DNA of 60,446 nucleotides, taken from positions 1 through 60,446 of the forward strand of contig JANXBH010000010.1 of assembly GCA_025060695.1 (NCBI GenBank), written 5' to 3'. Every line of letters starts with the position of its first letter. Position 1 is the stretch's first letter. This DNA comes from Caldifarciminota bacterium. Its GTDB lineage: Bacteria > Hydrothermota > Hydrothermia > LBFQ01 > DSFT01. Below the pieces are notes generated by a model, which did not search any database, was not told the DNA's origin, and was given only the letters and a program-made list of their open reading frames with translations. Position numbers and translations under genes: made by a program. Shown one piece after another: positions 3,108 to 57,683 of this stretch.

Positions 3108-3124
3108 ATTGAAAATTTTAAAGC
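3108..3124 (-). promoter_or_regulatory. Leaderless-type promoter of rpsO-pnp-radC
   Basis: Minus strand GCTTTAAAATTTTCAAT immediately before the rpsO ATG. The centre of the AAAA/TTTT step is 8.5 bp from the start codon. I see no clear -35 box upstream. Confidence 0.65.
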
Positions 3125-3134
3125 ATAAAGAGCA

Positions 3135-3827
3135 TTATAAAACCATACCAAATCCTAAGCTATTTTTTGAGCCAATTCCGCAATGTAGTAATATTTTCAT
3201 TAAACTTTCATCCGCATCAATACTTAACTTCCCACTATACCCAATAATAATTCCATTTTTATATTTCACTACCTCTTTTTTAAAACTCTTAAACTTAAAA
3301 TCAAACTTTCCTTCATAATCTTTTGAATAAACTATTAAGAACTTCTTTTTTAAATTTTCAAAAATAAGCTCTTTAAAATCTTTATCCTTAGGACCATAGA
3401 ATATTGTTTTTTTCCGAAATGTCCTATAGACAGTAATAGGAGATAAAGTTTTATAAGTCTTTTTTTGGAAATTGGGCTTTACGATTTCATATCCCTTAAA
3501 ATGTAGTTTTTTTTCATTTAAGTTCATATAACCCGTTTTTATTAAATTCTCTAATAACGAAATTACAAAATTATCAAAAATAGACGCAAAGTATATACTT
3601 ATTGGATTTCTAAAAACTATCAAATCATCCAATATGGAAAATCTTGAAATTATTCTTGAAAATGTAAAAAGCTTAAATTTTTTCTTTTCCATAGTAAAAC
3701 CTTCATCATGAAGAAATTTTGAAATATTACTATCAAATTTTCTATAAATTGCGGACTGAACCAAGTAGGTATAGTTTATTGGAAGTTCTAAATATTCATC
3801 TGAGTAGAAATTTAATTTTACAATCAT
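3135..3827 (-). CDS. cas6: CRISPR-associated endoribonuclease Cas6
   Basis: About 230 residues. Cas6 cleaves CRISPR precursor RNA within repeats to make crRNAs. The C-terminus carries the family glycine-rich loop (GIGSKNSLGFGMV); the N-terminus has the typical LPINYTYLVQSAIY stretch. A longer frame reaches 4007, but that extra part overlaps ald and lacks a start signal, whereas the ATG at 3827 directly follows a CTTTAAAATTTTTAAGT motif. It stands alone between ald and rpsO, with no array or cas neighbours. It plausibly serves the Cmr module at the right end, or another locus outside the window. Confidence 0.88.
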   Translation of the reverse strand: MIVKLNFYSDEYLELPINYTYLVQSAIYRKFDSNISKFLHDEGFTMEKKKFKLFTFSRIISRFSILDDLIVFRNPISIYFASIFDNFVISLLENLIKTGYMNLNEKKLHFKGYEIVKPNFQKKTYKTLSPITVYRTFRKKTIFYGPKDKDFKELIFENLKKKFLIVYSKDYEGKFDFKFKSFKKEVVKYKNGIIIGYSGKLSIDADESLMKILLHCGIGSKNSLGFGMVL

Positions 3828-3867
3828 ACTTAAAAATTTTAAAGCATTTACTTTAAAATTTAACATT
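3828..3867. promoter_or_regulatory. Divergent pair of leaderless-type promoters (cas6 / ald)
   Basis: Forty bases separate the two ATGs and hold two motif copies: CTTTAAAATTTTTAAGT on the minus strand for cas6, and CTTTAAAATTTAACATT (3851-3867) on the plus strand for ald. Each ends right at its start codon. Confidence 0.6.
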
Positions 3868-4977
3868 ATGCGTATTGGCATACCAAAAGAAATAAAAACA
3901 GAAGAGTATAGAGTTGCAATTACTCCTTCTGGAGTTGAAGAGCTTGTAAAAAGAGGACATATAGTATATGTGCAAAAGGATGCAGGAATAGGAAGTGGCA
4001 TAGCCAATGAGGACTATGAAAAGGCAGGTGCAAAGATATTAGATAGCTTAAAAGAAATTTATGAAAATTCTGACATAATAGTAAAGGTAAAAGAGCCATT
4101 AGAAGAAGAATATAAATTACTTAGGGAAAACTTAATATTATTTACTTTCTTACACTTGGCTGCAAATGAAAGATTAACAAAAGAACTATTAGAAAAAAAG
4201 GTTATTAGCATTGCTTATGAAACAGTGGAGATTAATGGAGAATTACCACTTCTAAAACCTATGAGCGAAATAGCCGGTAGGATGTCTATTCAAGAAGGGA
4301 TTAAGTATTTAGAGAAAACTTTTGGAGGAAGAGGAGTATTACTTAGCGGTATTCCTGGAGTTCCACCTGCAAGGGTAGTTATCATAGGTGGAGGAACAGT
4401 TGGGACAAATGCAGCACTTATAGCATCAGGTATGGGTGCAGATGTTTATGTATTGGATATTAATATAGATAGGCTTAGATACTTAAGTGAGATTATGCCT
4501 AAAAATATGAAGACTTTATATTCTAGCAGTTATAATATAAGGGAAGTTATTAAAGAAGCGGATTTACTAATAAGCGGAGTTCTTATACATGGAGCAAAAG
4601 CTCCCAAGATTATTACAAGAGATATGTTAAGGGAAATGAAAGATGGTTCTGTATTTGTAGATGTTGCTATTGATCAGGGAGGTTCATCTGAAACGTCAAG
4701 ACCTACTACGCACAAAGACCCAATTTATAAAGTGGATAATGTTATTCACTATTGTGTAGCTAATATGCCTGGTGCTGTCCCAAGAACATCAACATTTGCT
4801 CTAACTAACGCCACTATAAAGTATGTGATAAAATTAGCTGATTTAGGTTGGCCAGATGCTGTTATAAATGAACCTGCGCTAAGAAAAGGTGTAAATACAT
4901 ATAAAGGTTATATAACTTATCCTGCGGTAGCGGAAGCATTTGATATGGAATATGCCCCAATTGAAAAACTATTATAA
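3868..4977 (+). CDS. ald: Alanine dehydrogenase
   Basis: NAD-dependent L-alanine dehydrogenase (369 residues, normal length) interconverting alanine with pyruvate and ammonia in the cytoplasm. Visible hallmarks: N-terminal IGIPKEIKTEEYRVAITP, VKVKEP (substrate lysine), FLHLAA (active-site histidine), and a Rossmann motif IGGGTVGTNAAL near residue 172. The start is ATG after the promoter motif with no Shine-Dalgarno site. Its stop shares one base with the start of the next glycosyltransferase (TAATG), implying translational coupling. Confidence 0.96.
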   Translation: MRIGIPKEIKTEEYRVAITPSGVEELVKRGHIVYVQKDAGIGSGIANEDYEKAGAKILDSLKEIYENSDIIVKVKEPLEEEYKLLRENLILFTFLHLAANERLTKELLEKKVISIAYETVEINGELPLLKPMSEIAGRMSIQEGIKYLEKTFGGRGVLLSGIPGVPPARVVIIGGGTVGTNAALIASGMGADVYVLDINIDRLRYLSEIMPKNMKTLYSSSYNIREVIKEADLLISGVLIHGAKAPKIITRDMLREMKDGSVFVDVAIDQGGSSETSRPTTHKDPIYKVDNVIHYCVANMPGAVPRTSTFALTNATIKYVIKLADLGWPDAVINEPALRKGVNTYKGYITYPAVAEAFDMEYAPIEKLL

Positions 4978-5711
4978 TGAAAACATTAGTAATCATTCCT
5001 ACGTACAATGAAAGGGAAAATATTAGCTTAGTAATTGAAGAAATTAAAAAGTATTTACCTAATACTGATATTCTAATTATAGACGATAATTCTCCTGATA
5101 GGACTTACGAAGTTGTTATGGAAATTTCAGAGAATGATAACTCTATCAAGTTAATAAGAAGGGAAAAAAAATTAGGGCTTGGTAGTGCATACGTTATGGG
5201 CTTTAAGTATGCAATGGAAAACGACTATGATATAATATTTCAAATGGATGCAGACCTTTCACATCAACCATCAGACTTAATTAGACTTCTTGAAAAAATT
5301 CAAGAAGGATACGACTTAGTAATAGGTTCAAGATACATTAGTGGTGTAAATGTTGTAAATTGGCCTATGAAAAGACTACTATTATCATATTTTGCTAATT
5401 TATATGCAAGGATAATTACAGGTGTGCCAATTAAAGACTTAACATCAGGTTTTAAGGCAATAAGAGTAAGTGCATTAAAAAATATAGACTTGGAAAACAT
5501 AAAGTCAAATGGATATGGATTTCAAATTGAAATCACTTTTAGAATTTATAATAAGGGTTATAAAATAGTTGAAATACCTATTATTTTTTATGAAAGAAGA
5601 AGTGGTAATTCAAAAATGTCAAAAAAGATTATTTTTGAAGCGGCAATACTTGTTTGGAGACTAAGCTTTGAAAAACTTTTTAAACACTTTAAAATTTTAT
5701 TATGCTATTGA
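4977..5711 (+). CDS. GT2 glycosyltransferase, polyprenol-phosphate mannosyltransferase-like
   Basis: A 244-residue GT-A-fold enzyme of the dolichol-phosphate-mannose synthase type. IIPTYNERENI at the N-terminus, IDDNSPD, the metal-binding QMDADLSHQP near residue 90, SRYISG and DLTSGFKA are all family landmarks. It probably transfers a sugar from a nucleotide donor to a polyprenyl phosphate; the exact sugar cannot be read from sequence. It lacks the extra C-terminal membrane domain some relatives have. It is coupled to ald, and its last codons contain the promoter of the TPR gene. Confidence 0.88.
   Translation: MKTLVIIPTYNERENISLVIEEIKKYLPNTDILIIDDNSPDRTYEVVMEISENDNSIKLIRREKKLGLGSAYVMGFKYAMENDYDIIFQMDADLSHQPSDLIRLLEKIQEGYDLVIGSRYISGVNVVNWPMKRLLLSYFANLYARIITGVPIKDLTSGFKAIRVSALKNIDLENIKSNGYGFQIEITFRIYNKGYKIVEIPIIFYERRSGNSKMSKKIIFEAAILVWRLSFEKLFKHFKILLCY
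5687..5701 (+). promoter_or_regulatory. Leaderless-type promoter inside the 3' end of the GT2 gene
   Basis: CTTTAAAATTTTATT ends at the ATG of the TPR protein. It lies within the last codons of the upstream gene, so the two reading frames overlap by 10 nt and the promoter is fully intragenic. Confidence 0.6.
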
Positions 5712-7444
5712 TATTAATCCTACAAGATAGGGGATTTGAGGAGCAAATTCAAGAGGCAGGTGAATATGAAGTTGTTGCATACTACAAGCCCTATATTCCT
5801 TATAACTACAAACCATTGGATGAATTAAAATTCGTATTCTCTCAGATAAATAAACAAGACGCAATTAATATAATTAATGAACTTTCAAATTTTGTATATC
5901 CAAGAGATAGTATATTAGCAAAAGAAAGATTAAAAAAACTGAAGGATGAACCTAAAGGTATAAGGGATATTATTTTAAATAGTTTAATCTTTGAAGGGAA
6001 AGACTATGAAGGAGCATTTAACAAATCATTTTCAATTATAAATAGTAATGTAATTCAAACTTTTGAGAGAATTGCATACAAAATATACATATTTTCCGCA
6101 CTAAACTTAGGAAAATATAAAGAAGCATATAGTATAGCAAATTTTGTTATTCAAAACTTTTTTGAACCAGATAGTATTATTTACTATGCTTGTGGAGAAG
6201 CTTTTTACTATGCACACGAGTTTGAAAAAGTAGATTTTTATTCTTCAAAACTATACGATAATGCGGATATAAATTTAAGGGTATTATCTTTATATCTTGG
6301 AGGGTGGAATAATTTGAATTTAAGAAGGTATAACGAAGCTCTGAGTTTGCTAAATAGGTCATATGAAATAGCTACTGATAATTTTCTAAGAATTATACTA
6401 CAAATAGGCATAGCAGTTGCCAAGTTTAATTTAGGAGATAAAGTAAATTCGTATAATAGTATTGTTTCTATGAATGAGAATTTATTTACAGGGCAATCAA
6501 GGGCAGAGTTATTATACCATAGAGGTATGATAGCGTTTTATAATAAAAGGGACGATATAGTAGCGGAGAAGGACTTCTCAAGATTTATTCAAGATTTTCC
6601 AAAAGATGAAAGAGCACCATTTGTAGCACTAAAGCTTTCAGATTTATATAGATTTAAAGGTGATATTAAAAACGCCATATCAAATCTTGAGTGGATAAGG
6701 CTAAATTTTGATAAAATTATGGAAAAGGAAAATGCACTATATTTACTTGGAGAGTTATATTTATCTCAACAAGACTATCAAAAGTCATTATATGCATATT
6801 TAGAACTTATGGATAAATTTCCAACAAGCTCCTATGCATCAACCGCAAGGTTAAGAGCTGAGCAAATATTATCAAAACTTGCAACTGATGATGAAAAATA
6901 TATAGATACTTATAAAAGATACTTTCCTACGAGTCCTCAACTACCAGATGTATATTACTATTGGGGCGGTAAATATTTAAATGATAAAAATGATGAGAAA
7001 GCAAGTTATTACTTTTATAGATTAGCTCTTGAATTTCCCGAAAGTCCAAAAGCAAAGGAAGCAATATTTATAGCAGGACAGTTATTTTTAAAATTAAAAA
7101 AGTGGTCAGATGCATCTGAAACTTTTAAAAGATTAATTAGAATATATCCAGAGCATGGAAGAATTGGAGATGCATATGGTGGATTAGCACTTGCATATTT
7201 AAATCAAAATAATCCTGAAGGCGTCATAAGTTTTCTTACTAAAGCTCTAAGGGAGGATAGAGGCAGACTATCTGAATACGATAAAGGGGTAATTTACATG
7301 TATTTAGGACTTGCATATGAAAGTATTGGAAACATGGAAAAAGCGAGGGAGTATCTTGAAATTTCAAGAAATCAATTTTTTGGAGTAGGAAGAACAGACA
7401 TGTTAGAGCAGGTAAATCAATATCTTGATAGAATTCCAAGATAG
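5702..7444 (+). CDS. Large tetratricopeptide-repeat protein, probably exported
   Basis: A 580-residue protein built of helical pairs of the TPR type. Recognisable repeats include GKYKEAYSIANFVIQNF, LYLSQQDYQKSLYAYLELM, DEKASYYFYRLALEFP and MEKAREYLEISRNQFF. The spacing and the FP/YP-ending helices resemble outer-membrane assembly or cell-division TPR proteins (BamD/YbgF style), but no specific family is recognised. The N-terminus MLLILILQD is a very short hydrophobic stretch without basic residues, perhaps a minimal signal sequence. It starts directly after a promoter motif. Confidence 0.8.
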   Translation: MLLILILQDRGFEEQIQEAGEYEVVAYYKPYIPYNYKPLDELKFVFSQINKQDAINIINELSNFVYPRDSILAKERLKKLKDEPKGIRDIILNSLIFEGKDYEGAFNKSFSIINSNVIQTFERIAYKIYIFSALNLGKYKEAYSIANFVIQNFFEPDSIIYYACGEAFYYAHEFEKVDFYSSKLYDNADINLRVLSLYLGGWNNLNLRRYNEALSLLNRSYEIATDNFLRIILQIGIAVAKFNLGDKVNSYNSIVSMNENLFTGQSRAELLYHRGMIAFYNKRDDIVAEKDFSRFIQDFPKDERAPFVALKLSDLYRFKGDIKNAISNLEWIRLNFDKIMEKENALYLLGELYLSQQDYQKSLYAYLELMDKFPTSSYASTARLRAEQILSKLATDDEKYIDTYKRYFPTSPQLPDVYYYWGGKYLNDKNDEKASYYFYRLALEFPESPKAKEAIFIAGQLFLKLKKWSDASETFKRLIRIYPEHGRIGDAYGGLALAYLNQNNPEGVISFLTKALREDRGRLSEYDKGVIYMYLGLAYESIGNMEKAREYLEISRNQFFGVGRTDMLEQVNQYLDRIPR

Positions 7445-7445: not shown

Positions 7446-9374
7446 TTATTTAATTACTATACTTTTAGTCAGGTTCCCGTGCTTTAAAATATAAATACCT
7501 TTTTTAACATTATAAACTTTTTTACCATTTACAAACTCGGAAACGATTAATTTACCATCAATTGAATATATAGCTATATTGCCATGCCCCGTGAATATAA
7601 TCTTAGAACCTTCAACATGAAATTTAAAATTACCAAAATTGTTCTCAGTTAATTTTGTAGCAGTTACGCAAATATAATTTGTTTTAGTAATCCTATCAAT
7701 TGGTAAATCATTAGGTGAGTTTATAGCATTATTCTCATCTACATCAAACCAAATCATTACTACAAGATCATAGCATTTAGCTTGAATATTATAAGGTGTT
7801 GTAAATTGCCTTGTATAATTTTTTGTTCCAGGAATCACACTTATTCTTATATCATTGGCGGGATTACTTATCCAGTTTACACCATCGTATAAACTTGCAC
7901 CGAGCATTATTCTTGGATGTGTATCAGGAGTCCCTGAGTAAATATCCACAGAAATAGTAAATGTTTGTCCCGGATTTATATTAGTTGGACTTGCTGAAAG
8001 GTTAAGAAAACCCATAGGAGTTGAAATATGCCAATTTTTAGAGGAGTAATAATGGACAGCCATCCAATCCCAATACTTCCCGTTATCTCCCCATCTTTTT
8101 GTCCCCCATTGACACATACCCCTTCCATGACCAAAACAACCATGACCTGAACATAGATTATCATTTATACAGGGCCAACCTGTGCAGGGAGAGCCAGCTT
8201 TACCATCACCACAAGGACAACTATTTACACAATTTAAATTATCATTTGGATCATCCCAGCCATTATTTTCTGCAGAATATTCAGCTCTTGAAACTGAATT
8301 TGCCTGAGGAGAAATAGCAAAACCTGATGTATATTTCGCTGCATTTACTGTATTTACTGAGTAATCGCCATCCCAAACTTGACAGCAAGTCGTTGAGCAT
8401 ATATCGTAATTATTGCTTATAGGATTTAAAACATGCCAAGAACCATAAGCTCTATACGCAAGTGCTCCAGCTCTTAATGAGTGAGCATTCCAACTTGCTA
8501 TCCATTCATCATTGAGTCCTGTTTGCACATAACTTTCCAAACTCATAACTGATACACTTGAGCAATTTGTGCAAGAGCAATTTGTCCCAACCCTTATACT
8601 TGAAGGTGGGTCAAAAAACGGCAAAGGTATTACATCAGTCACATTTATACTATTTTCCTTCATTTTCATAAGTCTATTTCTGTCATAAACTCCATTTTCA
8701 GAAGAAGTATATCCATCTTTTATAAGATATTCATATGGTTTTCTATCTACTATTCCATGAACTTCGTTATATACAATATCTCCATTTCCCTCCGACATAC
8801 CAATTTTCAAAATAGTTATTCCGGGAAATAGAGCTAAATTGTTGTATTTATAGACTTTATAACCTGTCTTTGAAAATATGAAGTTAGTTCTTTTCATAAT
8901 AACTTTATATGCTCTTGAAAACTCATCCCTGTAAGGATTAAGGGTGTTTAGCTTTATGATAAACTTTCCATTTTGGTCAGTATACAAAATTTTATCTTCT
9001 ACTTTAATAGCTACATCTGATAGTGGTCTTAAAGTCCTCTCATCGTGAACATAACCAACTACAATAGCATAATTAGAAGATTCTTCAAAACCATAAATGG
9101 GTGAAATTTCTGGTTCTAAAAGAACGTCTACATTAATCACTTCTTCCTTTTTAAGAATAAAGTAAGTTTTTAGACTTTTGTAGCCTTTAGCATAAAATTC
9201 AAGCTCATATTTTCCATCTTCATTAGCAGGAATAGTTATTATAGGACTTTCAGAGTTTATAACCATATACGTATTAGATGGAGTTTTTACAATTACTCTA
9301 ATATTCTCTATGCCATAGTAAGTGTGAACATCTTTAACTTTTAAATTTATAGTAAATAAAGTTACAAACAACAT
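7446..9374 (-). CDS. Secreted SpoIID/LytB-domain protein with T9SS-type sorting domain
   Basis: A 642-residue protein. Residues about 10-90 and 105-160 resemble carboxypeptidase-regulatory-like beta domains (DVLLEPEISP; GYVHDERTLRPLSDVAIKV). The middle shows a SpoIID/amidase-enhancer core: LESYVQTGLNDEWIASWNA with the conserved Glu, then ALAYRAYGSW, VWDGDY, and a late HGRGMCQWG followed by HYYS. SpoIID proteins are lytic transglycosylases acting on peptidoglycan. The core is cysteine-rich, suggesting disulfides. The last 70 residues (IAIYSIDGKLI, KKGIYILKHG) look like a T9SS type-A sorting domain. N-terminus MLFVTLFTI is a minimal signal. Confidence 0.82.
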   Translation of the reverse strand: MLFVTLFTINLKVKDVHTYYGIENIRVIVKTPSNTYMVINSESPIITIPANEDGKYELEFYAKGYKSLKTYFILKKEEVINVDVLLEPEISPIYGFEESSNYAIVVGYVHDERTLRPLSDVAIKVEDKILYTDQNGKFIIKLNTLNPYRDEFSRAYKVIMKRTNFIFSKTGYKVYKYNNLALFPGITILKIGMSEGNGDIVYNEVHGIVDRKPYEYLIKDGYTSSENGVYDRNRLMKMKENSINVTDVIPLPFFDPPSSIRVGTNCSCTNCSSVSVMSLESYVQTGLNDEWIASWNAHSLRAGALAYRAYGSWHVLNPISNNYDICSTTCCQVWDGDYSVNTVNAAKYTSGFAISPQANSVSRAEYSAENNGWDDPNDNLNCVNSCPCGDGKAGSPCTGWPCINDNLCSGHGCFGHGRGMCQWGTKRWGDNGKYWDWMAVHYYSSKNWHISTPMGFLNLSASPTNINPGQTFTISVDIYSGTPDTHPRIMLGASLYDGVNWISNPANDIRISVIPGTKNYTRQFTTPYNIQAKCYDLVVMIWFDVDENNAINSPNDLPIDRITKTNYICVTATKLTENNFGNFKFHVEGSKIIFTGHGNIAIYSIDGKLIVSEFVNGKKVYNVKKGIYILKHGNLTKSIVIK

Positions 9375-9416
9375 ATTAAAATTTTATAGCTGCAAAGATA
9401 CTTTAAAATTGTAATT
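9375..9416. promoter_or_regulatory. Divergent leaderless-type promoters (SpoIID protein / rfaE1)
   Basis: Minus strand GCTATAAAATTTTAAT abuts the ATG at 9374; plus strand CTTTAAAATTGTAATT (9401-9416) abuts the TTG at 9417. The first copy has TATAAAAT in place of TTTAAAAT. Confidence 0.6.
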
Positions 9417-10364
9417 TTGAAGAAAATTCTTAAATATATCAATAGTGAATTAAAAGCAAAAATTTTAGTTGTGGGGGATTTAATATTAGATAAGTATTAT
9501 TTTGGAAATGTAGAGAGAATATCTCCAGAAGCACCTGTCCCTGTTGTTCATGTAAAGAAAATAGTTTCAAGAATAGGGGGTGCAGGAAATACCGCATTGA
9601 ATTTAAAAAACTTGGGAGTAAACGTAGACATATTAGGCATAGTAGGAAATGATGAAAATGCAATCGAACTATTAGAACTAATTGAAAAAAACGGATTTAA
9701 GAATGATTTTATATTCAAAGTAGAAAATATAACTACTACAAAAATTAGAGTAATATCGAGACAGCAACATCTAATTAGAATTGACTTTGAAGAAGTAAAA
9801 CCAATTAGTATTGAAGACAAGATACTAAAACTATTAGAAGAGCACTTAAAAAACTACGACATAGTAATTATATCCGATTATAACAAGGGATTAATAACTG
9901 AAAATATTTCGCAATATATTATAAACTCCTCAAAATTTACAATAGTTGACCCAAAAGGTAAAAATTGGAAAAAATATAAAAACGCAAATATTATAACACC
10001 AAACGTGAAAGAGCTCTCAGAAGGATTAAATTTAACTCTTGAGAATGAAGACAAACAATTAGAAATAGCAGGAAAAACTGCAATAGAAAGATACAATATA
10101 AATAGCATTTTAATAACTCGTTCAGAAAAAGGCTTGAGTTATATAGATAGACAAAGAACTATACATGTTCCTACAATAGAAAGCGAAGTATACGATGTCT
10201 CAGGAGCAGGTGATACGGTAGTAGCGTCATTAGCTTTTGGAATTTTATGTAATATAGATATGAAAGAAATACTTGAATTTGCCAACTTATGTGCAAGTAT
10301 TGTAATAAGGCATATAGGAACGTATGCAATTAAAAAAGAAGATATTTTGAATTTCGCACTTTAA
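9417..10364 (+). CDS. rfaE1: D-glycero-beta-D-manno-heptose-7-phosphate kinase (RfaE1/HldE kinase domain)
   Basis: PfkB/ribokinase-family sugar kinase (315 residues). VVGDLILDKYYFGNVERISPE at the N-terminus is the heptose-kinase signature, RIGGAGNTALNL the substrate loop, and YDVSGAGDTVVASLAFG near residue 258 the catalytic anion hole. It phosphorylates heptose 7-phosphate for ADP-heptose in LPS core synthesis. Only the kinase half is present; the nucleotidyltransferase half found in fused HldE is absent and must be encoded elsewhere. The start codon is TTG, set by the adjacent promoter motif. The stop codon lies in the next gene's promoter. Confidence 0.92.
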   Translation: MKKILKYINSELKAKILVVGDLILDKYYFGNVERISPEAPVPVVHVKKIVSRIGGAGNTALNLKNLGVNVDILGIVGNDENAIELLELIEKNGFKNDFIFKVENITTTKIRVISRQQHLIRIDFEEVKPISIEDKILKLLEEHLKNYDIVIISDYNKGLITENISQYIINSSKFTIVDPKGKNWKKYKNANIITPNVKELSEGLNLTLENEDKQLEIAGKTAIERYNINSILITRSEKGLSYIDRQRTIHVPTIESEVYDVSGAGDTVVASLAFGILCNIDMKEILEFANLCASIVIRHIGTYAIKKEDILNFAL

Positions 10365-10378
10365 AATTTACAAACTTA
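10359..10378 (+). promoter_or_regulatory. Promoter motif containing the rfaE1 stop codon (for pyrR-lonC)
   Basis: CTTTAAAATTTACAAACTTA before the pyrR ATG. The upstream gene ends CTT-TAA, so its stop codon is part of the motif. Centre to ATG is about 12.5 bp. Confidence 0.55.
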
Positions 10379-10933
10379 ATGAATAGTAAAAAATTAGTAG
10401 AAAAATATAAGTTAATGGATGAAATTGCGTTTTTTAGGACAATACGAAGAATGGCCTTGGAAATATTAGAACATAGTGAAAACTCTTCAGATATTATCCT
10501 TGCAGGTATTAGAACAAGAGGAGTATATCTCGCACAATATTTAAAAAGAGAAATTGAGAAAGAAATAAGTACGAAGGTTATCATAGGAGAAGTAGACATT
10601 TCATTTTATAGAGATGACCTTTCACTTTTAGGTGAAAGTCCCGTAGTTAAGGGAACGAAATTAGACGTAGATATTGACAAAAAAATTGTTTTTTTAGTTG
10701 ATGATGTTTTATATACTGGAAGAACAGTAAGAGCAGCTATTGATGTGCTATTAGATTTTGGAAGACCAAAAGCAATTAAATTAGTTGTATTAATAGATAG
10801 AGGATGGAGAGAACTACCAATATATGCAGACATAGTAGGCAAAAAAATTACTACTACACATGATGAAATAGTAAAGGTAAAAGTAAAAGATATAGATAAT
10901 GAGGATGCAGTTTATATAGCTCAAAAACTATGA
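10379..10933 (+). CDS. pyrR: PyrR-type uracil phosphoribosyltransferase / pyrimidine regulator
   Basis: 184-residue PyrR. The PRPP-binding motif VFLVDDVLYTGRTVRAAID near residue 100, GIRTRGVYLA and VDISFYRDDLS are all characteristic. In bacteria it couples uracil phosphoribosyltransferase activity to attenuation of pyrimidine genes. No pyr biosynthetic gene or obvious attenuator is next to it here, so a regulatory role in this organism is uncertain. Its stop overlaps the lonC start as ATGA. Confidence 0.92.
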   Translation: MNSKKLVEKYKLMDEIAFFRTIRRMALEILEHSENSSDIILAGIRTRGVYLAQYLKREIEKEISTKVIIGEVDISFYRDDLSLLGESPVVKGTKLDVDIDKKIVFLVDDVLYTGRTVRAAIDVLLDFGRPKAIKLVVLIDRGWRELPIYADIVGKKITTTHDEIVKVKVKDIDNEDAVYIAQKL

Positions 10934-16732: not shown

Positions 16733-16749
16733 ATCAAAAATTTTAAGGC
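16733..16749 (-). promoter_or_regulatory. Promoter motif containing the upstream stop codon (panB operon)
   Basis: Minus strand GCCTTAAAATTTTTGAT next to the ATG at 16732. The upstream lipoprotein gene ends CCT-TAA inside the motif. Confidence 0.55.
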
Positions 16750-18612: not shown

Positions 18613-18632
18613 ACTTTAAAATTTTAAAGTCT
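18613..18632. promoter_or_regulatory. Shared bidirectional palindromic promoter (lipoprotein operon / rtcB)
   Basis: The whole gap between the two start codons is ACTTTAAAATTTTAAAGTCT, with 18613-18630 a perfect 18-bp palindrome. A TTG start lies directly on its left, an ATG 2 bp to its right. Each strand carries TAAAAT at -10-like spacing to its own gene. Confidence 0.7.
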
Positions 18633-43637: not shown

Positions 43638-43658
43638 AGCCTTAAAATTTTAAAGCTA
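43638..43658. promoter_or_regulatory. Shared bidirectional palindromic promoter (rpoZ-coaBC-plsC / accD)
   Basis: AGCCTTAAAATTTTAAAGCT (43638-43657) plus one A is the complete gap between the two ATGs; the arms are inverted repeats with one mismatch over 20 bp. Confidence 0.7.
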
Positions 43659-45320: not shown

Positions 45321-45786
45321 TTTTGTTCATTTCTTCGACGTCTTTTCTTAATTTTTGAAAATACTCCTTTAATTTCTCTTCAAGCTCCTTATATTTAATT
45401 GATAGAATTCTAATAGCCAATATACCTGCATTATACGAATTTCCAATAGCAACAGTTGCAACTGGTATACCTTTTGGCATTTGAACTATTGAAAGTAGTG
45501 AATCTATACCATTTAAATGTTTAGAAGGTATTGGGACACCAATCACAGGTAAGTCAGTTAAGCTTGCGGTCATACCCGGAAGATGAGCGGAACCACCCGC
45601 ACCCGCTATAATAACCTCTATTCCTCTACTTCTGGCAGTTTTTGCATACTCATACATTCTCTCAGGTGTTCTATGAGCTGAAACTATTTCAACTTCATAG
45701 TTTATACCAAATGATTTTAAGACTTCTATAGCATCTTTCATATATTCAAAATCAGAAATACTTCCCATTATTATTCCTACTTTCAC
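45304..45786 (-). CDS. purE: N5-carboxyaminoimidazole ribonucleotide mutase
   Basis: 160-residue class I PurE of purine biosynthesis. [34 protein letters not shown] and [20 protein letters not shown] are the active-site loops. PurK is not nearby. Start is GTG, directly adjoining CTTTAAAATTTTTAAA. Confidence 0.96.
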
Positions 45787-45833
45787 TTTAAAAATTTTAA
45801 AGTAAATGCGAACAAACTTTAAAATTTTTACTT
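45787..45833. promoter_or_regulatory. Divergent promoters with a nested palindrome (purE / amidase)
   Basis: Minus strand ACTTTAAAATTTTTAAA abuts the purE GTG; plus strand CTTTAAAATTTTTACTT (45817-45833) abuts the amidase ATG. The purE copy is itself near-palindromic and on the plus strand is followed by ATG at 45806, opening a 14-codon frame. Confidence 0.6.
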
Positions 45834-49711: not shown

Positions 49712-49720
49712 AATTTAATT
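49706..49720 (+). promoter_or_regulatory. Promoter motif containing the lysC stop codon
   Basis: CTTTAAAATTTAATT ends at the ATG at 49721. lysC finishes CTT-TAA inside it. Confidence 0.55.
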
Positions 49721-50032
49721 ATGTTAGATTTAATTTTTACCTTGCTATTACAAGAAGTAGAAAAAAGTGAAATAAAATACAAAGAAAAAACAGTTGAAAG
49801 ATACAGAGGAGGATATTTTGTATATATTATAAAAGGAAACGAAACTTACGAATATGAGCTAAATGATGAGAATTTAAACAAGGATAAACTTCAAAGTGAA
49901 CTATCTAAACTAAAGAGTGTAAGAGAATTGGTCTTTGATAGTAAAACGAATACATTAACTATAAAGGTAAATACAGAAAAGGAAGTAGAAAAAGTATTGT
50001 CTAAATACGGTTTTAAGAGAAGGGAAAAGTAA
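49721..50032 (+). CDS. Small protein with possible short signal, unknown
   Basis: 103 residues: MLDLIFTLLLQ, a brief hydrophobic start, then a highly charged region (EVEKSEIKYKEKTVERYRGG) and a beta/alpha domain ending VEKVLSKYGFKRREK. May be periplasmic. No family recognised. Convergent with rsfS. Confidence 0.6.
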   Translation: MLDLIFTLLLQEVEKSEIKYKEKTVERYRGGYFVYIIKGNETYEYELNDENLNKDKLQSELSKLKSVRELVFDSKTNTLTIKVNTEKEVEKVLSKYGFKRREK

Positions 50033-50036: not shown

Positions 50037-50363
50037 CTATACCTCAAAAGTTTGAACTATTTTCTTTTGTGGGGCTTTAATCCAGAATCCTTCTAAGTCG
50101 TAAAATTCCCTTGCTTCCTTTGTAAGTAAATGGACTATGATATCTACGTAGTCAAGTGAAATCCACTTACTTCCTCTACCCTCTTCCCTATAAGGTTCAA
50201 ATTCCTTCTCTATATGTTCAGCTATAGCAACAAGATGGTCATTAGTATAACCACTTGCAACTATAAAGTAGTCAGCAATAGTTGATATGTTTTTAAGTTC
50301 TATGATAACTACATCAAATCCCTTTTTCTCAACAATTAGCTCTACTATCCTATCTAATAGCAT
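50037..50363 (-). CDS. rsfS: Ribosomal silencing factor RsfS
   Basis: 108 residues of the RsfS/Iojap family, which binds L14 on the 50S subunit and blocks subunit joining during starvation. KGFDVVIIELKNISTIADYF and IVASGYTNDHLVAIAEHI, with WISLDYVDIIVHLL, are the family core. ATG at 50363 overlaps the NuoI-like copy 2 by 14 nt; a TTG just upstream is also open. Confidence 0.93.
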   Translation of the reverse strand: MLLDRIVELIVEKKGFDVVIIELKNISTIADYFIVASGYTNDHLVAIAEHIEKEFEPYREEGRGSKWISLDYVDIIVHLLTKEAREFYDLEGFWIKAPQKKIVQTFEV

Positions 50364-50970
50364 CAAATATATTCTTTACCTTCTTCAATTTTGAAGCATT
50401 CTTAATAATATTTTCAAATTGTTTTTGTTCTTTTGCGGATGTTGTAATTAGTGATTTTTCAGATGAATTAATACTTTCAGTCCTTTTAGGATCTTGTTCA
50501 GCTCTTAAACTTTCACCTGTTGCCCATACACTTAATTTATATTTTCTCCAGTTATTTAAAAGCTTTTCCTTATCTAAAATTAATTCTTCTCTTGAAAAGT
50601 ACCCTTCTTCTACATTTGGTAACATTACAATAGCATCAGCAGGACAAACCTGAACGCACATCTCGCATTTCATGCAAGCATTTAAATCTAATATAAATTC
50701 CTTAGGATAAGTTATTTTCTTTTTAGAACCATCAGGCATTTCTTTTTCCTCAATTCCTCTTGTAATAGAAATAATCTGAGAAGGACAAATATTTTGACAT
50801 AATAAACAAGCAATACAATTTATATTTCCTTCCTCATCTTCACTTAAGCCAAATGTGCCACCTCTATATCTCTTTGGTATTTCTCTTACTTCAAGAGGAT
50901 AATTTGAAGTTATTGGAGGTTTTATAAAATTTTTAATACTTACGATTAAAGACTTAAAAACATCAAACAT
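50350..50970 (-). CDS. NuoI-like 2x[4Fe-4S] ferredoxin protein (copy 2)
   Basis: About 206 residues. CIACLLCQNICPSQII and CMKCEMCVQVCPADAI are the two iron-sulfur motifs; SNYPLEVREIPKRYRGG is the NuoI-like preamble. A longer frame begins at 50991, but the ATG at 50970 follows CTTTAAAATTTTACAT. The C-terminal 60 residues are Lys/Ser-rich and unlike copy 1. No other complex I gene is adjacent; coupled to rsfS. Confidence 0.87.
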   Translation of the reverse strand: MFDVFKSLIVSIKNFIKPPITSNYPLEVREIPKRYRGGTFGLSEDEEGNINCIACLLCQNICPSQIISITRGIEEKEMPDGSKKKITYPKEFILDLNACMKCEMCVQVCPADAIVMLPNVEEGYFSREELILDKEKLLNNWRKYKLSVWATGESLRAEQDPKRTESINSSEKSLITTSAKEQKQFENIIKNASKLKKVKNIFDAIR

Positions 50971-50986
50971 ATGTAAAATTTTAAAG
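50971..50986 (-). promoter_or_regulatory. Leaderless-type promoter of NuoI-like copy 2 - rsfS
   Basis: Minus strand CTTTAAAATTTTACAT immediately before the ATG at 50970; supports this start over an open frame beginning at 50991. Confidence 0.6.
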
Positions 50987-50996
50987 GGCAAAACAC

Positions 50997-52928
50997 TTAT
51001 CGTAAAGGAAAGAATAGGTTAAACAAACCTCTTGTAAGTCTAATTTCAGGTATAGCGGTTAGGTATATTTTAAAATCATATGAAGAAAAAATGCCAATTG
51101 AAGAATATGAAATATCCGCTTTCCATTCATGTAAATCTCTACTTAATGAAATACTTTGTCCTTGAACTATTCCTAAATTAAAGTCTCTACTAAAGGAATA
51201 ACTAAAACTCCACTTATTCGTGAGTTTTCCTGAGATTGAAAAATTTAGGATATTTTGAGGAGTTGATAAACTCGCACTAATACTATAACCAAAGATTGTT
51301 TGACTATAAGAAAAATTTCCTAAAATTTCTGAAAAGTTTTTAGTATAATAATTGTAAGTCGTTGAAAAACTTGCTGAAATATTTAAAAATCTAGGTAAAA
51401 TTAAGCTTATTGAAAGTGGAGAAAATGGTAAATCAAATGAAGGATTATAACTACCAGAAAAACTTAAAGTACCTACAGAATATTTTCTATTTTGAAATTT
51501 TATAGAGAATTGATTTAGAATACTATATGAATAAGAAAAAGAAACTGGTATGGTATCAAAAAGAGACCTTGAGTAATTTATACCTATTGAGGGAGTAATA
51601 TCGTGATAAAATCTCTCTATTTTCCATATAGAAAATACGCTTCTTCCGTAGATTGTTGTGGATATACTGCTTGAATAGTTCATATTTAAACTTTTTTTCC
51701 ATATGCTATCATTATGAGCTCTTTTTGCACTAAAGGGAAGAGATAAACTATTTGAAAGTTTTAAATTTTGTAAAATATTTATTGGTCTTGTAAGTGATAA
51801 ATTATATGCAAAACTTTGAGAAGTATATCTATTATTTAGACTATCTATGAGAATACTCTGATTAAACGAAGAACTTTGAGTTATAAGAATTCCTAAAAAG
51901 CTAAAACTATTAATTGTTAATATGATATTTGGTAAATTACTACTTGCTTGACCTGTAATAAGATTTTTTGTATAGTCAAAATTCGAAGAAAATCCCCCAA
52001 AGAAAAAGTTTCTACTAATTTGAAAATAGGAATATGTCTCAGTTTTTAGCCATTGGTCCTTATTTTCAGCATAATCTTGAAAATAACTCTGGTCAGAAAC
52101 TATAAAATATCTACTTGCAGTTCTAAATCTATATACTTCCTGATTGTGGTTCCCTTCTAACGAATATCTCCTCCTAACAGCCCTAAATACAAAGTCGTTT
52201 GAAAAATTAAAGTTTATATTCCCATTAAACTTTTTATATACATTATAGACTGTATTTATACCAAATCTAATACCCTGCCTTTCGACAATATCCATATAAA
52301 ATGACATATCAGCATAATTATTTATAACCCAATAAAATGCAATATTTCTAATATATTTTCCATCTATGGAATTAAAACCAAAACTTGGTGTTAAAAAACC
52401 ACTACTTCTTTCCTCCTTTAGTGGAAATATCCAGAATGGAGAATACAAAATAGGAATATCTCTTATTTTTAATACTACGTTTTTTACTAATGCCATATCA
52501 CCTCTTATAGCAAGCATTTCAGTACCATAAAAAGCGGAATGAGGAATGTTCAAATCGCAAGTTGTAAAGAAACCGTCCTTTATATACAATGTATCACCTT
52601 TTAGTTTATATAGTTTATTGGAATTTAGCCAACCTTTTTGAACAAAATTTCTTGTATGAAATGCAATACCATCTTGACCATCAAGAAAATATATAAGGCT
52701 ATCACCTGTGATCTTTGAAGTATCAATTATAAGTAAAAATCTTGACTTTGCCCTTATCGTTTTACTATTTAAGGAGTATTCAATAGTATCCGCATATAGT
52801 TGAACATTTCCTCTTTTTACATAAGCACTATCGTAAAGGATAACCTTAGCACTATCTGAAATATAAATAAGTTCCTTACCTTTAAAGAAAACTTTATTAG
52901 TATCTATTTGAGCAAATATAATAAACAC
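50997..52928 (-). CDS. lptD: LptD/OstA-like LPS-assembly outer-membrane protein
   Basis: 643 residues. An N-terminal OstA-like domain (DSAKVILYDSAYVKRGNVQL, ADTIEYSLNSKTIRAKS) precedes the LptD hallmark YSPFWIFPLKEERSSGFLTP and a long beta-barrel region ending in TRGLFNLFFPLR. It inserts LPS or an equivalent glycolipid into the outer leaflet. Start is probably GTG at 52928; MFIIFAQID is a very short signal. The upstream in-frame CTG would give KTLVFIIFAQ, but it lies too close to the promoter core. Confidence 0.82.
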   Translation of the reverse strand: MFIIFAQIDTNKVFFKGKELIYISDSAKVILYDSAYVKRGNVQLYADTIEYSLNSKTIRAKSRFLLIIDTSKITGDSLIYFLDGQDGIAFHTRNFVQKGWLNSNKLYKLKGDTLYIKDGFFTTCDLNIPHSAFYGTEMLAIRGDMALVKNVVLKIRDIPILYSPFWIFPLKEERSSGFLTPSFGFNSIDGKYIRNIAFYWVINNYADMSFYMDIVERQGIRFGINTVYNVYKKFNGNINFNFSNDFVFRAVRRRYSLEGNHNQEVYRFRTASRYFIVSDQSYFQDYAENKDQWLKTETYSYFQISRNFFFGGFSSNFDYTKNLITGQASSNLPNIILTINSFSFLGILITQSSSFNQSILIDSLNNRYTSQSFAYNLSLTRPINILQNLKLSNSLSLPFSAKRAHNDSIWKKSLNMNYSSSISTTIYGRSVFSIWKIERFYHDITPSIGINYSRSLFDTIPVSFSYSYSILNQFSIKFQNRKYSVGTLSFSGSYNPSFDLPFSPLSISLILPRFLNISASFSTTYNYYTKNFSEILGNFSYSQTIFGYSISASLSTPQNILNFSISGKLTNKWSFSYSFSRDFNLGIVQGQSISLSRDLHEWKADISYSSIGIFSSYDFKIYLTAIPEIRLTRGLFNLFFPLR

Positions 52929-52950
52929 TAATGTTTTCAGAAATTTTAAA
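52929..52950 (-). promoter_or_regulatory. Promoter motif containing the upstream stop codon (lptD)
   Basis: Minus strand CTTTAAAATTTCTGAAAACATTA before the lptD GTG (C at 52951). The methyltransferase ends CTT-TAA within it. Spacing to the GTG is the longest of the set, implying a leader of up to about 9 nt. Confidence 0.45.
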
Positions 52951-53836
52951 GTTTTACAATTTTTGAGATATAGAATGGTTCAAAATTTCCAAATCTTATA
53001 TAAACGCCATATCCAAAACTATCATAATAGTAATCTTCAAAAGGGAAAGAAACTTTCTCAATTTTTAAATTATCGTATTTTTTTATTAAATAATCAATAA
53101 CCTCTTCGTTTTCTTCCTTCGTAATTGTGCAAGTTGAATATACAAGCACACCCCTTCTTTTTAAACACTTAAAGCCACTTTCTATTAAAGATTTCTGCAA
53201 TTTTGAAAATTCTTTTACCTTCTTATAACTCCACCACTTTATAATATCCTTATTTTTGTGAATAGTTCCAATTGCAGAGCATGGAACATCCACAAGAACC
53301 CTATCAAAATAATTCTCATAATATTTATAAAACAACTCCCCCTTAAACTGAGTAATAACTACATTTATGCAACCCATCCTATCTACATTAAATGCAAGTG
53401 CAGATGTTCTGTCAATACTGACATCGTTAGCAACTATAACTCCTTTGTTATTCATAAATTGAGAAATTAATGTGGTTTTTGAACCGGGAGATGCACAAAG
53501 GTCTAAAACAAGCTCTCCTTCTTGTGGTTCTAATACTATGACTGGCAGCATGGAGGACAATTCTTGAACGTATATATAACCTAAATAGTGCTCAAGAGTA
53601 TTTCCAATCTCAGATGGATAGTACTCTACCCTAAATGCAAAATCTAAAAACTCTATTCTTGAAAGAATAAAACCCTTTTTAGTTAATCTACTATAAACAT
53701 CCTCTATATTTGCTTTTAAAGTATTTACTCTAATTATAGGTCTAAGTGGATATATTGCCCAATTTAAAAAATTCTCATATTCATCTTTAAAATGCCCTCT
53801 TAAAAATTTATCTAATTGTCTGTTTTCTATTTTCAC
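52946..53836 (-). CDS. RsmB/NOP2-family RNA (cytosine-5)-methyltransferase
   Basis: 296 residues. LVLDLCASPGSKTTLISQFM is the SAM motif; DRVLVDVPCSAIGTIHKNKD has the Pro-Cys pair and LVYSTCTITKEENEEVIDYL the catalytic Thr-Cys, both needed for m5C formation. No N-terminal NusB domain, so it is like RsmF/YebU-core or archaeal NSUN6-like enzymes. Starts with GTG next to the variant motif CCTTAAACTTTACCCT. Confidence 0.9.
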   Translation of the reverse strand: MKIENRQLDKFLRGHFKDEYENFLNWAIYPLRPIIRVNTLKANIEDVYSRLTKKGFILSRIEFLDFAFRVEYYPSEIGNTLEHYLGYIYVQELSSMLPVIVLEPQEGELVLDLCASPGSKTTLISQFMNNKGVIVANDVSIDRTSALAFNVDRMGCINVVITQFKGELFYKYYENYFDRVLVDVPCSAIGTIHKNKDIIKWWSYKKVKEFSKLQKSLIESGFKCLKRRGVLVYSTCTITKEENEEVIDYLIKKYDNLKIEKVSFPFEDYYYDSFGYGVYIRFGNFEPFYISKIVKL

Positions 53837-53884
53837 AGGGTAAAGTTTAAGGTAGCTTTGATAACTTTAAAATTTTAAAAACTT
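53837..53884. promoter_or_regulatory. Divergent promoters (m5C methyltransferase / DUF4388-like)
   Basis: Plus strand CTTTAAAATTTTAAAAACTT (53865-53884) abuts the GTG at 53885. Minus strand has a degenerate CTTAAACTTT before the GTG at 53836. Confidence 0.5.
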
Positions 53885-54190
53885 GTGTCAAAGCAAATAA
53901 ATATTAGGGGGGATTTTTTAAGTATTCTTTGGAAAGCAGTTGATGAAGAAATTACAGGAAGATTAGAATTTTTGGAGCCAAAAGGTTCCGGTATTGTGAG
54001 AATTAGTATGATAAATGGAAATATCTATCAAATAGATAGTTCTTGGGGTTTTGGAAGGTCAGAAATAAATAAAATCTTAGAATGGAAAGTAGGTGAATGT
54101 AGAATAAAAAAGCTCACAGAAAGTGAAATAGAAGAATTGAAGCAGAAAAATATTATTATGACTCCCGCTGAAATATTACTTTTGAAATGA
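53885..54190 (+). CDS. DUF4388 (PatA N-terminal-like) domain protein
   Basis: 101 residues. ITGRLEFLEPKGSGIVRISM and INGNIYQIDSSWGFG follow the DUF4388 pattern (strand, strand, small loop, GxIxxA-like). These domains occur in signalling proteins of myxobacteria, cyanobacteria and FCB groups; the mechanism is unknown. Starts with GTG and is ATGA-coupled to the arginase-family gene. Confidence 0.65.
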   Translation: MSKQINIRGDFLSILWKAVDEEITGRLEFLEPKGSGIVRISMINGNIYQIDSSWGFGRSEINKILEWKVGECRIKKLTESEIEELKQKNIIMTPAEILLLK

Positions 54191-54975: not shown

Positions 54976-55881
54976 TTAGTCAAAATAGGATAACCATTCA
55001 TATGACCTTTCTCTAAGATAATCTACATAATACGAAAAGTCCTCATAAAAACATCCGCAAGTTCTTAAGGAAGAAACAAATTTATCTAAGTAATCAAATG
55101 CAATATTAATCGTCTTTTTATGGGCATTACAACTTTTTATTATGTCCTTCAACTTGACCTCATCTTCTATATAGTTTAGAACTTCTTTATATTCTTCAAA
55201 TGCAAAAATAAGAGGTAAGCTAATTTTTCCCCTCTTAATATCTATAAAGAAATCCTCACAGTCATCAATAATTTGATATGCAACACCCAATAAAGAGCCA
55301 AAATCTCTAAATTTATCTATATCCTGATTTACAACTATAGCAGAGGAAGAAAATGAATATTCAAATAGAGATGCGGTTTTATTTTTAATTATATCAAAAT
55401 AGTTCTTCTTTAATAATTTATCTTCCTTGCTTAAAAGTTCTTCGTAAAGTTCTCCTCTTATCATATTTTTTGAAGTTCTAATAAATTCATCTAAAACTAA
55501 CGAATTACCATAGTTCTTTACAAATTCCAAAGACTTTATAAATACATAGTCTCCACTTAAAACCGCTACCGAATTACCATATAATTTATTTACAGTAGGA
55601 TAGTCTCTTCTAATATTTTCATTATCAATAATATCATCGTGTATAAGTGATGACGCATGTAAGAGCTCAACAGATATAGCTAAATTTAATGTCATATCAT
55701 TTAGCAAATTGTAATTTTTTACTACAATCATATATGCTAATGCTCTAAGCCTTTTTCCCATTAAAATAAACTCAGGAATTAAAACCTTTTCTTCAAATAA
55801 TTTTTTTATATTCAATTCCAATTGCTCTAATTGTTTTCTATATTTTTCTCTTAGTAAATTGAGTAAATTTTCACTCTTCAA
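54976..55881 (-). CDS. Polyprenyl diphosphate synthase
   Basis: 301 residues of the trans-prenyltransferase family. First aspartate-rich motif in SSLIHDDIIDNENIRRDYPT, second in YQIIDDCEDFFIDIKRGK. Chain length is uncertain; the region before the first motif has no bulky FF pair near the DDxxD, so a long-chain product (quinone side chain) is possible. Overlaps the S1 gene by 11 nt. Confidence 0.9.
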   Translation of the reverse strand: MKSENLLNLLREKYRKQLEQLELNIKKLFEEKVLIPEFILMGKRLRALAYMIVVKNYNLLNDMTLNLAISVELLHASSLIHDDIIDNENIRRDYPTVNKLYGNSVAVLSGDYVFIKSLEFVKNYGNSLVLDEFIRTSKNMIRGELYEELLSKEDKLLKKNYFDIIKNKTASLFEYSFSSSAIVVNQDIDKFRDFGSLLGVAYQIIDDCEDFFIDIKRGKISLPLIFAFEEYKEVLNYIEDEVKLKDIIKSCNAHKKTINIAFDYLDKFVSSLRTCGCFYEDFSYYVDYLRERSYEWLSYFD

Positions 55882-57580
55882 GATCTGTTAACTCTTTTAA
55901 TTTTGAAAGTTCTTTACTTAGAATATCTCCAAGATTTAAACGAGCTGGCTCTTGGAGTTCTTTAAGTTTTTTCTTTGCTTCTTCCTGCTTTTGTTTTTCA
56001 AGAAGTTTATAGTATTGTCTTTCCGAAAGTAAAACTCTTTTCTTTTCAGGCTCAACTCTAACTACCGCTAAATTAAGTTCTTCACCAATACTATATACTT
56101 CCCTTGGATTACCTTTTCTTTGAGTACTGCTTATTGGAACAAATCCCTCAATTCCATCGTAAATATCTACCACTATTCCTTTATCTAAAATTCTAATAAT
56201 GGGGGCTTTTAAAATAGTATCAGGTTTTAGAGTTTCAGAAATCTGCGTCCAAGGATTAGCTGTAAGTTCTTTTAGACTCAACTCTATCATTCTGTGCTTT
56301 TTATCTATATCTTTAACAAGTGCTTTAATTTTTTGCCCTTTTCTTAGAAATTCTTCAGGATTTTTAACCTTCTTAGTCCAAGACATATTGGAAACATGAA
56401 TATAACCAAATATTTCAGGTTCCAATTCCACAATAGCACCATCAATATCAAAGTCTATTACTTTTCCTTTTACAATGGAATTTATTGAATATTTTTCCTC
56501 AATAACTGCCCATGGATCAGGTTGAACCTGCTTCATTCCTAAGGATATTCTCTCTCTTTCTACGTCCACATTTAGAACAACTAATTCTACTTCTTGACCA
56601 ACTCTTACCATTTCAGACGGATGACTTGGGGGTCTCCCCCATTTCATTTCAGAAATATGAACCAATCCATCAATACCCGACTCAAGCTCTACAAAGAAAC
56701 CAAAATCTAAAATTTTCTTTACTTTGCCTTTTACTTTACTACCAATAGGATATTTTTGAGCAATGGACTGCCAAGGATGAGGTTGGAGTCTTTTAATAGA
56801 TAGTATTATCTTTCTATTATCTCTATCAATATCTATCACTTGCACCTTCACTCTATCACCGACTTTATATAGCTCATCTATTCTCTTTATTTTATTCCAA
56901 GATATTTCCGAAATATGGACTAATCCTTCTATACCACCAATATTCACAAAAAGTCCAAATTCCACTATACTGCTTATTACCCCATCAAATACATCACCTA
57001 TCTTAATTTCACTCAACCTCTGCTTTGCTAATTCTTCCTCTTCTTCTAATACTTCTATTCTTGAAACCACAATGTTTTTTCTTTGAACGTCTATTTTTAT
57101 AATTTTTACAGGTAAAATCTTACCTACAAAACTATTAAAGTTTTTAATTTTTTTTCTATCTATTTGACTCCCGGGTAAAAATGCTTCAACTCCAAAAACA
57201 TCAACCACTAATCCACCTTTTACAATTCTTAAGACTTTACTATATACTGTCTCATTATTTTCATATGCATTTCTTATTTTTTCCCAATTTAACATAAAAT
57301 CCGCTTTATGCTTTGAAACTTTTACACCTTCCTTACTGTCAACTTTTTCTATATACACACTTATTTCATCTCCAACATTATACTCACCACTCCTTATTTC
57401 CTCTACTTTTAATATACCTTCAGCCTTACCTCCTATATCAACAAAAACTTCCCTTGGAGTAATTTTCAGAATCTTTCCTTTTACTATTTCACCCTCCTTT
57501 AGAACTTCCACTTTTAACTGCTTGTTTATAAGCTCTAAATAATCACTATCACTCACTTCCACTTTCTCCTTACCTAACAT
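55871..57580 (-). CDS. rpsA: S1 RNA-binding protein, ribosomal protein S1-like
   Basis: About 569 residues with six S1 domains, the clearest being VFDGVISSIVEFGLFVNIGG, KGKVKKILDFGFFVELESG and KGKVIDFDIDGAIVELEP, each followed by a GxxHxS segment. Size and repeat number fit bacterial S1. Unlike most units here, the mRNA would have a leader: GGAGGTGAG sits 6-14 nt before the ATG at 57580, with the motif copy about 40 bp further up. A GTG at 57589 falls in the Shine-Dalgarno region and is less likely. Confidence 0.92.
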   Translation of the reverse strand: MLGKEKVEVSDSDYLELINKQLKVEVLKEGEIVKGKILKITPREVFVDIGGKAEGILKVEEIRSGEYNVGDEISVYIEKVDSKEGVKVSKHKADFMLNWEKIRNAYENNETVYSKVLRIVKGGLVVDVFGVEAFLPGSQIDRKKIKNFNSFVGKILPVKIIKIDVQRKNIVVSRIEVLEEEEELAKQRLSEIKIGDVFDGVISSIVEFGLFVNIGGIEGLVHISEISWNKIKRIDELYKVGDRVKVQVIDIDRDNRKIILSIKRLQPHPWQSIAQKYPIGSKVKGKVKKILDFGFFVELESGIDGLVHISEMKWGRPPSHPSEMVRVGQEVELVVLNVDVERERISLGMKQVQPDPWAVIEEKYSINSIVKGKVIDFDIDGAIVELEPEIFGYIHVSNMSWTKKVKNPEEFLRKGQKIKALVKDIDKKHRMIELSLKELTANPWTQISETLKPDTILKAPIIRILDKGIVVDIYDGIEGFVPISSTQRKGNPREVYSIGEELNLAVVRVEPEKKRVLLSERQYYKLLEKQKQEEAKKKLKELQEPARLNLGDILSKELSKLKELTDLEE

Positions 57581-57625
57581 ATATCTCACCTCCTATAATA
57601 TAGCTTTTGAAAACTTTGAAATTTT
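57581..57625 (-). promoter_or_regulatory. Promoter motif plus Shine-Dalgarno leader of rpsA
   Basis: Minus strand CTTTAAAATTTCAAAG near 57626-57611, then about 30 nt and GGAGGTGAG before the ATG. This is the one motif copy followed by a true leader. Confidence 0.55.
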
Positions 57626-57683
57626 AAAGTATTTTAATAATAGTTGTTTGGATTTTGTTAAGAAAAGTTTTCATAATTTAAAT

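Follow-up and report, generated by a model that had tools for sequence, protein, structure and literature searches.

How does a bacterium begin its messages when one AT-rich box takes the place of the Shine-Dalgarno (SD) site before the first genes of its transcription units? The question is raised by a stretch of 60,446 nt (contig JANXBH010000010.1; hereafter the window) from the 1.5-Mb, approximately 30% GC genome of an uncultured hot-spring bacterium, in which a preliminary description had seen one palindromic motif at nearly every unit start and had proposed leaderless mRNAs as the default. The present analysis indicates that the box, RCTTTAAAATTTT, is very probably a general core promoter of the housekeeping sigma-70 type that works with no -35 element, and that most transcription units are predicted to be leaderless or near-leaderless.

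Abundance and shape of the box

Within the window TTAAAATTTT occurs 26 times where 5.4 are expected (about five-fold), a count reached by none of 100 shuffles; in the genome, CTTTAAAATTTT occurs 198 times vs. 22 for the reversed pattern, a nine-fold difference. The genome-wide gene-start statistics below cover 455 kb (the window and 20 further stretches, with 458 genes called). An unsupervised expectation-maximization (EM) search recovered ACTTTAAAATTTt at 84% of divergent starts, with a log-likelihood of 704 against 123 for shuffled sequences. The full box is a directional element of 13 letters whose aligned form reads R C T T T A A A A T T T T; promoter position -15 is C in 84% of cases (81% among same-strand promoters) and -14 is T in 76%. 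Its symmetric part is limited to the core AAAATTTT, and only a minority of boxes are palindromes in full. Of the palindromic motif originally described there thus remains one motif with a symmetric core, which accounts for its having been taken for a palindrome; the element as a whole is a directional extended -10 box. It could be argued that AT-rich start regions in a 30% GC genome simply yield AAAATTTT by chance, and weak intragenic matches are indeed frequent at low thresholds. However, the excesses over shuffled and reversed controls, the strong specificity for position and class of start described below, and the retention of the box in relatives at 51-53% GC leave such an artefact of composition with next to no probability.

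Position at gene starts

Starts were classed as divergent, as same-strand with a spacing of more than 5 nt, or as same-strand with a spacing of at most 5 nt or an overlap (tightly coupled, operon-internal), and the gap was counted in nucleotides from the end of the TAAAAT hexamer to the start codon or the tRNA 5' end. An exact TAAAAT stands at a gap of 5-12 before 85 of 118 divergent starts vs. 12 of 200 tightly coupled ones; by weight matrix, the box adjoins 90 of 118 vs. 14 of 200 (Fisher p 1e-38). The claimed fixed spacing is borne out by a gap of mostly 6-10 nt, with a mode of 7, which is identical for ATG, GTG, and TTG starts, the identity of the start codon being uninformative on the start of transcription. 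Over the 200 nt preceding 236 first genes, 138 sense-strand boxes fall at 4-13 nt and 0-15 in each other 10-nt bin, and the motif is thus not equally common far from gene starts. The box adjoins 151 of 436 genes of the genome (35%), and is adjacent at 76% of divergent starts and at 58-61% of all non-tightly-coupled starts, a set that contains some unrecognised internal genes. In the window, the figure of about 30 genes given earlier agrees with 28 called starts, two corrected ones (ATG 22109 on the + strand and ATG 3827 on the - strand), and one tRNA-Thr. “Nearly every” unit start is a fair account of the divergent starts there (about 20 of 22 box-adjacent), but overstates the genome-wide proportions.

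Shine-Dalgarno sites

An SD site is found at none of 138 box-adjacent first genes vs. 65 of 200 operon-internal genes (about a third), as the preliminary description had it; the background at a control offset is 5%. The site returns at 9 of 19 first genes whose nearest box lies 20-60 nt upstream, and is present at 27 of 74 without a near box. The 16S rRNA tail carries a normal, intact anti-SD, GGATCACCTCCTT. At least one unit of the window, 55871-57580 on the - strand, departs from the predicted leaderless rule, having its box 40 nt upstream together with an SD site; this gene, predicted to be leadered and SD-led, is an internal control.

Boxes before untranslated genes

At least 25 tRNAs carry the box, with the hexamer ending 7-17 nt, mostly 10-15 nt, before the mature 5' end. 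Nearly all first-in-unit tRNAs are preceded by it; box-less tRNAs lie mostly inside tRNA clusters, with Glu(CTC), Gly(CCC), and Ala(CGC) near 16S as exceptions. The 16S gene has a box 65 nt upstream. The tRNA gaps exceed those of mRNAs, as would be expected if transcription began at a fixed point and RNase P required a short leader on the tRNA. Since the same box precedes untranslated tRNA and 16S genes, it would be a promoter -10 element and not a translation signal, and together with its position this upholds the assignment of TAAAAT as a -10 hexamer. The longer tRNA gaps and the return of SD sites where the box is distant agree with this reading. The alternative, a non-SD ribosome-binding or translation-enhancer element in the mRNA (compare the A/U-rich signals of Bacteroidota) with the true promoter further upstream, would explain why the box lies at ribosome-binding distance from start codons and takes the place of the SD site. 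However, it would not explain the untranslated genes, nor the near-absence of the box from operon-internal starts, which still require a translation signal; moreover, no other promoter motif was found upstream. We regard it as very improbable.

A predicted promoter and route of initiation

Bacterial RNA polymerase initiates about 7 nt past the -10 hexamer. Because the gap is mostly 6-10 nt, the mRNAs are predicted to be leaderless or near-leaderless, and we infer that transcription starts at the start codon or no more than about 4 nt upstream of it. The promoter would comprise the hexamer TAAAAT, an extended element in recoded form (R-16 C-15 T-14 T-13), and flanking T-rich sequence. Initiation of translation would then be SD-free, presumably with a 70S ribosome engaging the codon at the 5' end, and SD sites would be used by operon-internal genes and by genes with a box at least 20 nt upstream. 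As far as sequence can speak to it, the case for leaderless or near-leaderless initiation as the default is strong, resting on the position of the hexamer, the loss of the SD site, its return when the box is distant, and the tRNA and rRNA boxes.

Several points weigh against this interpretation. About a quarter of divergent starts have no adjacent box, and 23 of the 201 boxes scoring 12 or more are intragenic. Part of the exclusion of SD sites from box-adjacent starts is a matter of geometry, since the box fills the SD position, and the SD-bearing first genes without a near box could be internal genes or could have other promoters. The gene calls come from our own dicodon-model caller, some of whose start codons are wrong, and the two corrected starts were reassigned by eye.

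In aligned promoters from the 455 kb, no column of the -35 zone upstream of the boxes exceeds about 0.2 bits, and an EM search for a -35 element in same-strand promoters returned nothing clear, barely above shuffles. A -35 hidden by variable spacing was considered and rejected, as EM on the full set recovered only the neighbouring divergent gene's own box. CarD as a substitute for the -35 was likewise set aside: the genome is without a stand-alone CarD, and the sole domain match lies in an 850-aa frame fitting Mfd.

The motif holds approximately 15 bits, above the usual -10, and this, with the palindromic core, might suggest that the box is bound by a global regulator or nucleoid protein whose site overlaps core promoters, and is not itself the -10. 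However, C-15 is directional, the distance to the 5' ends of both mRNA and tRNA genes is fixed, no alternative hexamer is seen at the -10 position, and a sister family retains TANAAT at equal spacing with a different flank. A regulator site is, on these grounds, unlikely, and the core promoter remains the preferred explanation.

Relatives and placement

A ClpC search matched WOR-3 genomes and JAUQPS01. By match counts, JAUQPS01 corresponds to G001, a genome of the same genus as that of the window, and the WOR-3 genomes correspond to G029 and G031, of the same class. These matches suggest placement in candidate phylum WOR-3, which NCBI now names Caldifarciminota, in place of the FCB-type bacterium that had been guessed. 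The same search gave a ClpC 54% identical to that of the window in L022 of JANXBA01, labelled Aquificaceae SKYB2, possibly a mislabelled or mixed bin.

The DNA samples from other genomes were small, about 20-180 kb each. Same-family genomes of 51-53% GC retain the motif next to starts, in the form ctTTAAAATTt. The sister family, at 55% GC, has a recoded box, C..C..TANAAT, with C at -18 in 46 of 46 and a gap of 7-9, found at 61% of first genes vs. 5% at a control offset and 2% of internal genes. Orthologous pairs between the two families often keep the gap and have aligned starts, as does alanine dehydrogenase (gap likewise 8 in the sister family); the samples from the same genus and family had too few genes in common with the window's genome for a like comparison. 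Because the box is kept in same-family relatives at 51-53% GC and, recoded, in the sister family at 55% GC, AT-richness does not explain it. Family f4 has the box TATAAT with a TTG-type -35, and families f6, f8, and f10 of the same class have SD sites at first genes; EM searches for a -35 in f4 and f9 gave TTG-type motifs from few sequences, only marginally above shuffles. With the sister family recoded, f4 apparently bearing a -35, and the other three SD-led, the layout is, judging by these genomes, lineage-specific, and the promoter code differs between sister families.

Sigma factor and promoter code

RpoD is present, with a normal region 4.2 and the equivalents of H455 and E458 kept (HMIE in region 3.0); residues are numbered as in E. 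coli RpoD. The equivalent of E. coli Q446 is H in all checked genomes of both families of the order and Q or N elsewhere. That of T440 is I in the window's genome and M in its genus mate; f4 has S, and the remaining intact sequences keep T. In E. coli, the specificity mutation T440I is a classic -12 suppressor (PMC2613000). However, -12 is T in nearly all boxes, and the -35 has been lost elsewhere without sigma changes (PMC8407463). The connection of these residues to the promoter code is no more than a lead. A tentative proposal, to which we would give somewhat less than an even chance, is that the order rewrote its housekeeping promoter code: the -35 was given up, the -10 was extended by C-15 (and by C-18 in the sister family), region 2.4 of RpoD changed, and the compact promoter made leaderless initiation the default and allowed divergent regions of 20 bp.

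The lineage could also be imagined to have acquired a promoter of the archaeal BRE/TATA type (TTTAAA flanked by a C), and CTTTAAAA is similar to archaeal TATA boxes. However, an archaeal TATA box is placed some 25 nt ahead of the transcription start, and the box here is only 8-13 nt from the start of the gene; moreover, the organism is a bacterium with an intact RpoD. Such an acquisition is extremely improbable.

Divergent pairs and boxes in the window

Since the core AAAATTTT is self-complementary, one box may serve two divergent genes with start codons about 20 bp apart, RNA polymerase presumably reading it both ways. In seven of 59 divergent pairs the box centres coincide in one common box and the start codons are separated by 14-23 bp; a further 28 pairs have two distinct boxes, most of them 15-35 bp from each other. 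Four of the seven common boxes lie in the window, at 18613, 25840, 37061, and 43639. The boxes of the window are as follows.

3112-3124, - strand: box GCTTTAAAATTTT; gene 2835-3107, gap 7
3833-3845, - strand: box GCTTTAAAATTTT; gene ending at 3135, in-frame ATG 3827, gap 8
3850-3862, + strand: box ACTTTAAAATTTA; alanine dehydrogenase 3868-4977, gap 8
5686-5698, + strand: box; TPR protein 5702-7444, gap 6
9378-9390, - strand: box GCTATAAAATTTT; gene 7446-9374, gap 6
9400-9412, + strand: box, back-to-back with 9378-9390; gene 9417-10364 (TTG), gap 7
10358-10370, + strand: box; gene 10379-10933, gap 11
16737-16746, - strand: box core TTAAAATTTT, upstream of open reading frame 16415-16732
18613-18630, both strands: shared palindromic box ACTTTAAAATTTTAAAGT; genes 18049-18612 (-, gap 8) and 18633-20081 (+, gap 10), starts 20 bp apart
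20472-20484, - strand: box GCCTTAAAATTTT; gene 20088-20468, gap 6
22070-22082, - strand: box ACTATAAAATTTT; gene 21436-22065, gap 7
22092-22104, + strand: box GCTTTAAAATTTA; ATG 22109, gap 7
22771-22782, + strand: box CTTTAAAATTTT; untranslated tRNA-Thr(CGT) gene 22789-22861, gap 9
25504-25516, - strand: box ACTATAAAATTTA; PhoD-like gene 24179-25498, gap 8
25840-25857, both strands: shared box; genes 25516-25839 (-, gap 8) and 25860-26198 (+, gap 10), starts 20 bp apart
28984-29006, both strands: two boxes, centres 15 bp apart; genes 27312-28976 (-, gap 10) and 29010-29597 (+, GTG, gap 6)
30219-30231, + strand: box; Clp ATPase 30239-33289, gap 10
33290-33302, + strand: box; gene 33308-33961, gap 8
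37061-37078, both strands: shared box; PrmC-like gene 36314-37057 (-, gap 11) and sigma-70-family gene 37078-37899 (+, gap 7), starts 20 bp apart
40508-40520, + strand: box; gene 40524-40886, gap 6
43639-43656, both strands: shared box; genes 43434-43637 (-, gap 9) and 43659-44492 (+, gap 10), starts 21 bp apart
45791-45803, - strand: box; purE 45304-45786 (GTG), gap 7
45816-45828, + strand: box, centre 30 bp from that at 45791-45803; amidase 45834-47057, gap 8
49705-49717, + strand: box; gene 49721-50032, gap 6
50975-50987, - strand: box; gene 50350-50970, gap 7
52940-52951, - strand: box; LptD-like gene 50997-52928 (GTG), longer gap of about 12-14
53841-53853, - strand: variant box ACCTTAAACTTTA; gene 52946-53836 (GTG), gap 7
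53864-53876, + strand: box; gene 53885-54190 (GTG), gap 11
57618-57630, - strand: box about 40 nt before ATG 57580; gene 55871-57580, with AGGAGG as SD site

The gene ending at 3135 probably starts at 3827 instead of 3866. The sigma-70-family gene at 37078-37899, which has its palindromic box in common with a PrmC-like methyltransferase gene, is the second such gene, and its subfamily is unclear, the best NCBIfam matches being far below cut-off.

RNase P and the rRNA promoter

Upstream of the 16S box (L153) are the repeated TTGAC-like words TTGACA, TTGAAT, TTGACT, and TTGACC, which may mean that a -35 or some other activator site persists in the rRNA promoter. Predicted tRNA leaders in the window's family (f1) are a few nucleotides only. 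RNase P RNA (RF00010) was undetected in all four genomes of this family (G000-G003), and RF00011 was also absent in G000. These genomes encode a HARP-type protein-only RNase P (in G000, L010:7721-8152 on the - strand), whereas in the sister family the RNA is present and HARP absent. Family f1 may thus rely, like Aquifex, on an RNase P that contains no RNA. The HARP gene shifts frame at a run of nine A (L010 near 8150 and L156 near 3430, both on the - strand) in both species of the window's genus, with sequence conserved either side of the run, and it lies in a single frame in the sister genus. As the frame change is conserved in two species, it suggests programmed slippage rather than sequencing error.

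Comparison with known systems

In the literature that we searched, no account was found of leaderless genes for WOR-3, Caldifarciminota, Stahlbacteria, or Hydrothermae. If the present model is correct, an uncultured phylum would join the few bacterial groups with leaderless initiation as default. The families of one class would form a natural series, with SD-led families at one end, leaderless ones at the other, and distinct promoter codes in sister families, so that transitions between the two modes, and a change of housekeeping promoter code, become testable by comparison. Gene starts in such genomes may also be better called from the box than by SD models, as the starts at 3827 and 22109 illustrate.

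The likeness to extended -10 (TGn) sigma-70 promoters lies in the extra bases upstream of the hexamer, a presumably dispensable -35, and the retained extension-reading residues H455 and E458; the difference is that TG at -15/-14 is replaced here by C-15 T-14 T-13, and in the sister family by C-18 and C-15. As in bidirectional promoters (Warman et al.; PMC12825309), a single symmetric -10 would be readable by RNA polymerase both ways; here, however, each direction is predicted to be leaderless, and for that reason approximately 20 bp can hold the two promoters together with the two start codons. Zheng et al. (2011; PMC3160421) put TA-led leaderless genes at about 20% in Actinobacteria and at no more than 46% in D. 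radiodurans, a range into which the 35% of box-adjacent genes here would fall. Such genes likewise replace the SD site with a -10-like TA signal at the start codon, but WOR-3 is not among the phyla covered, and the low-GC groups show TAtAAT, some TG-extended, without C-15. The closest layout described is the -10 motif adjacent to open reading frames in Deinococcus-Thermus, where TANNNT stands 6-7 bp before the start with no SD site and no classical -35, at about a third of open reading frames and alongside SD-led genes, all of which is seen here too (modal gap 6-7), and where, in D. radiodurans, reporters have identified it as a promoter working without a -35 (PMC12340547). In comparison, the box described here is longer and more uniform, and what is new in it is the phylum, the C-15 extension, the use at tRNA and rRNA genes, and the palindromic core by which divergent pairs share one box within 20 bp.

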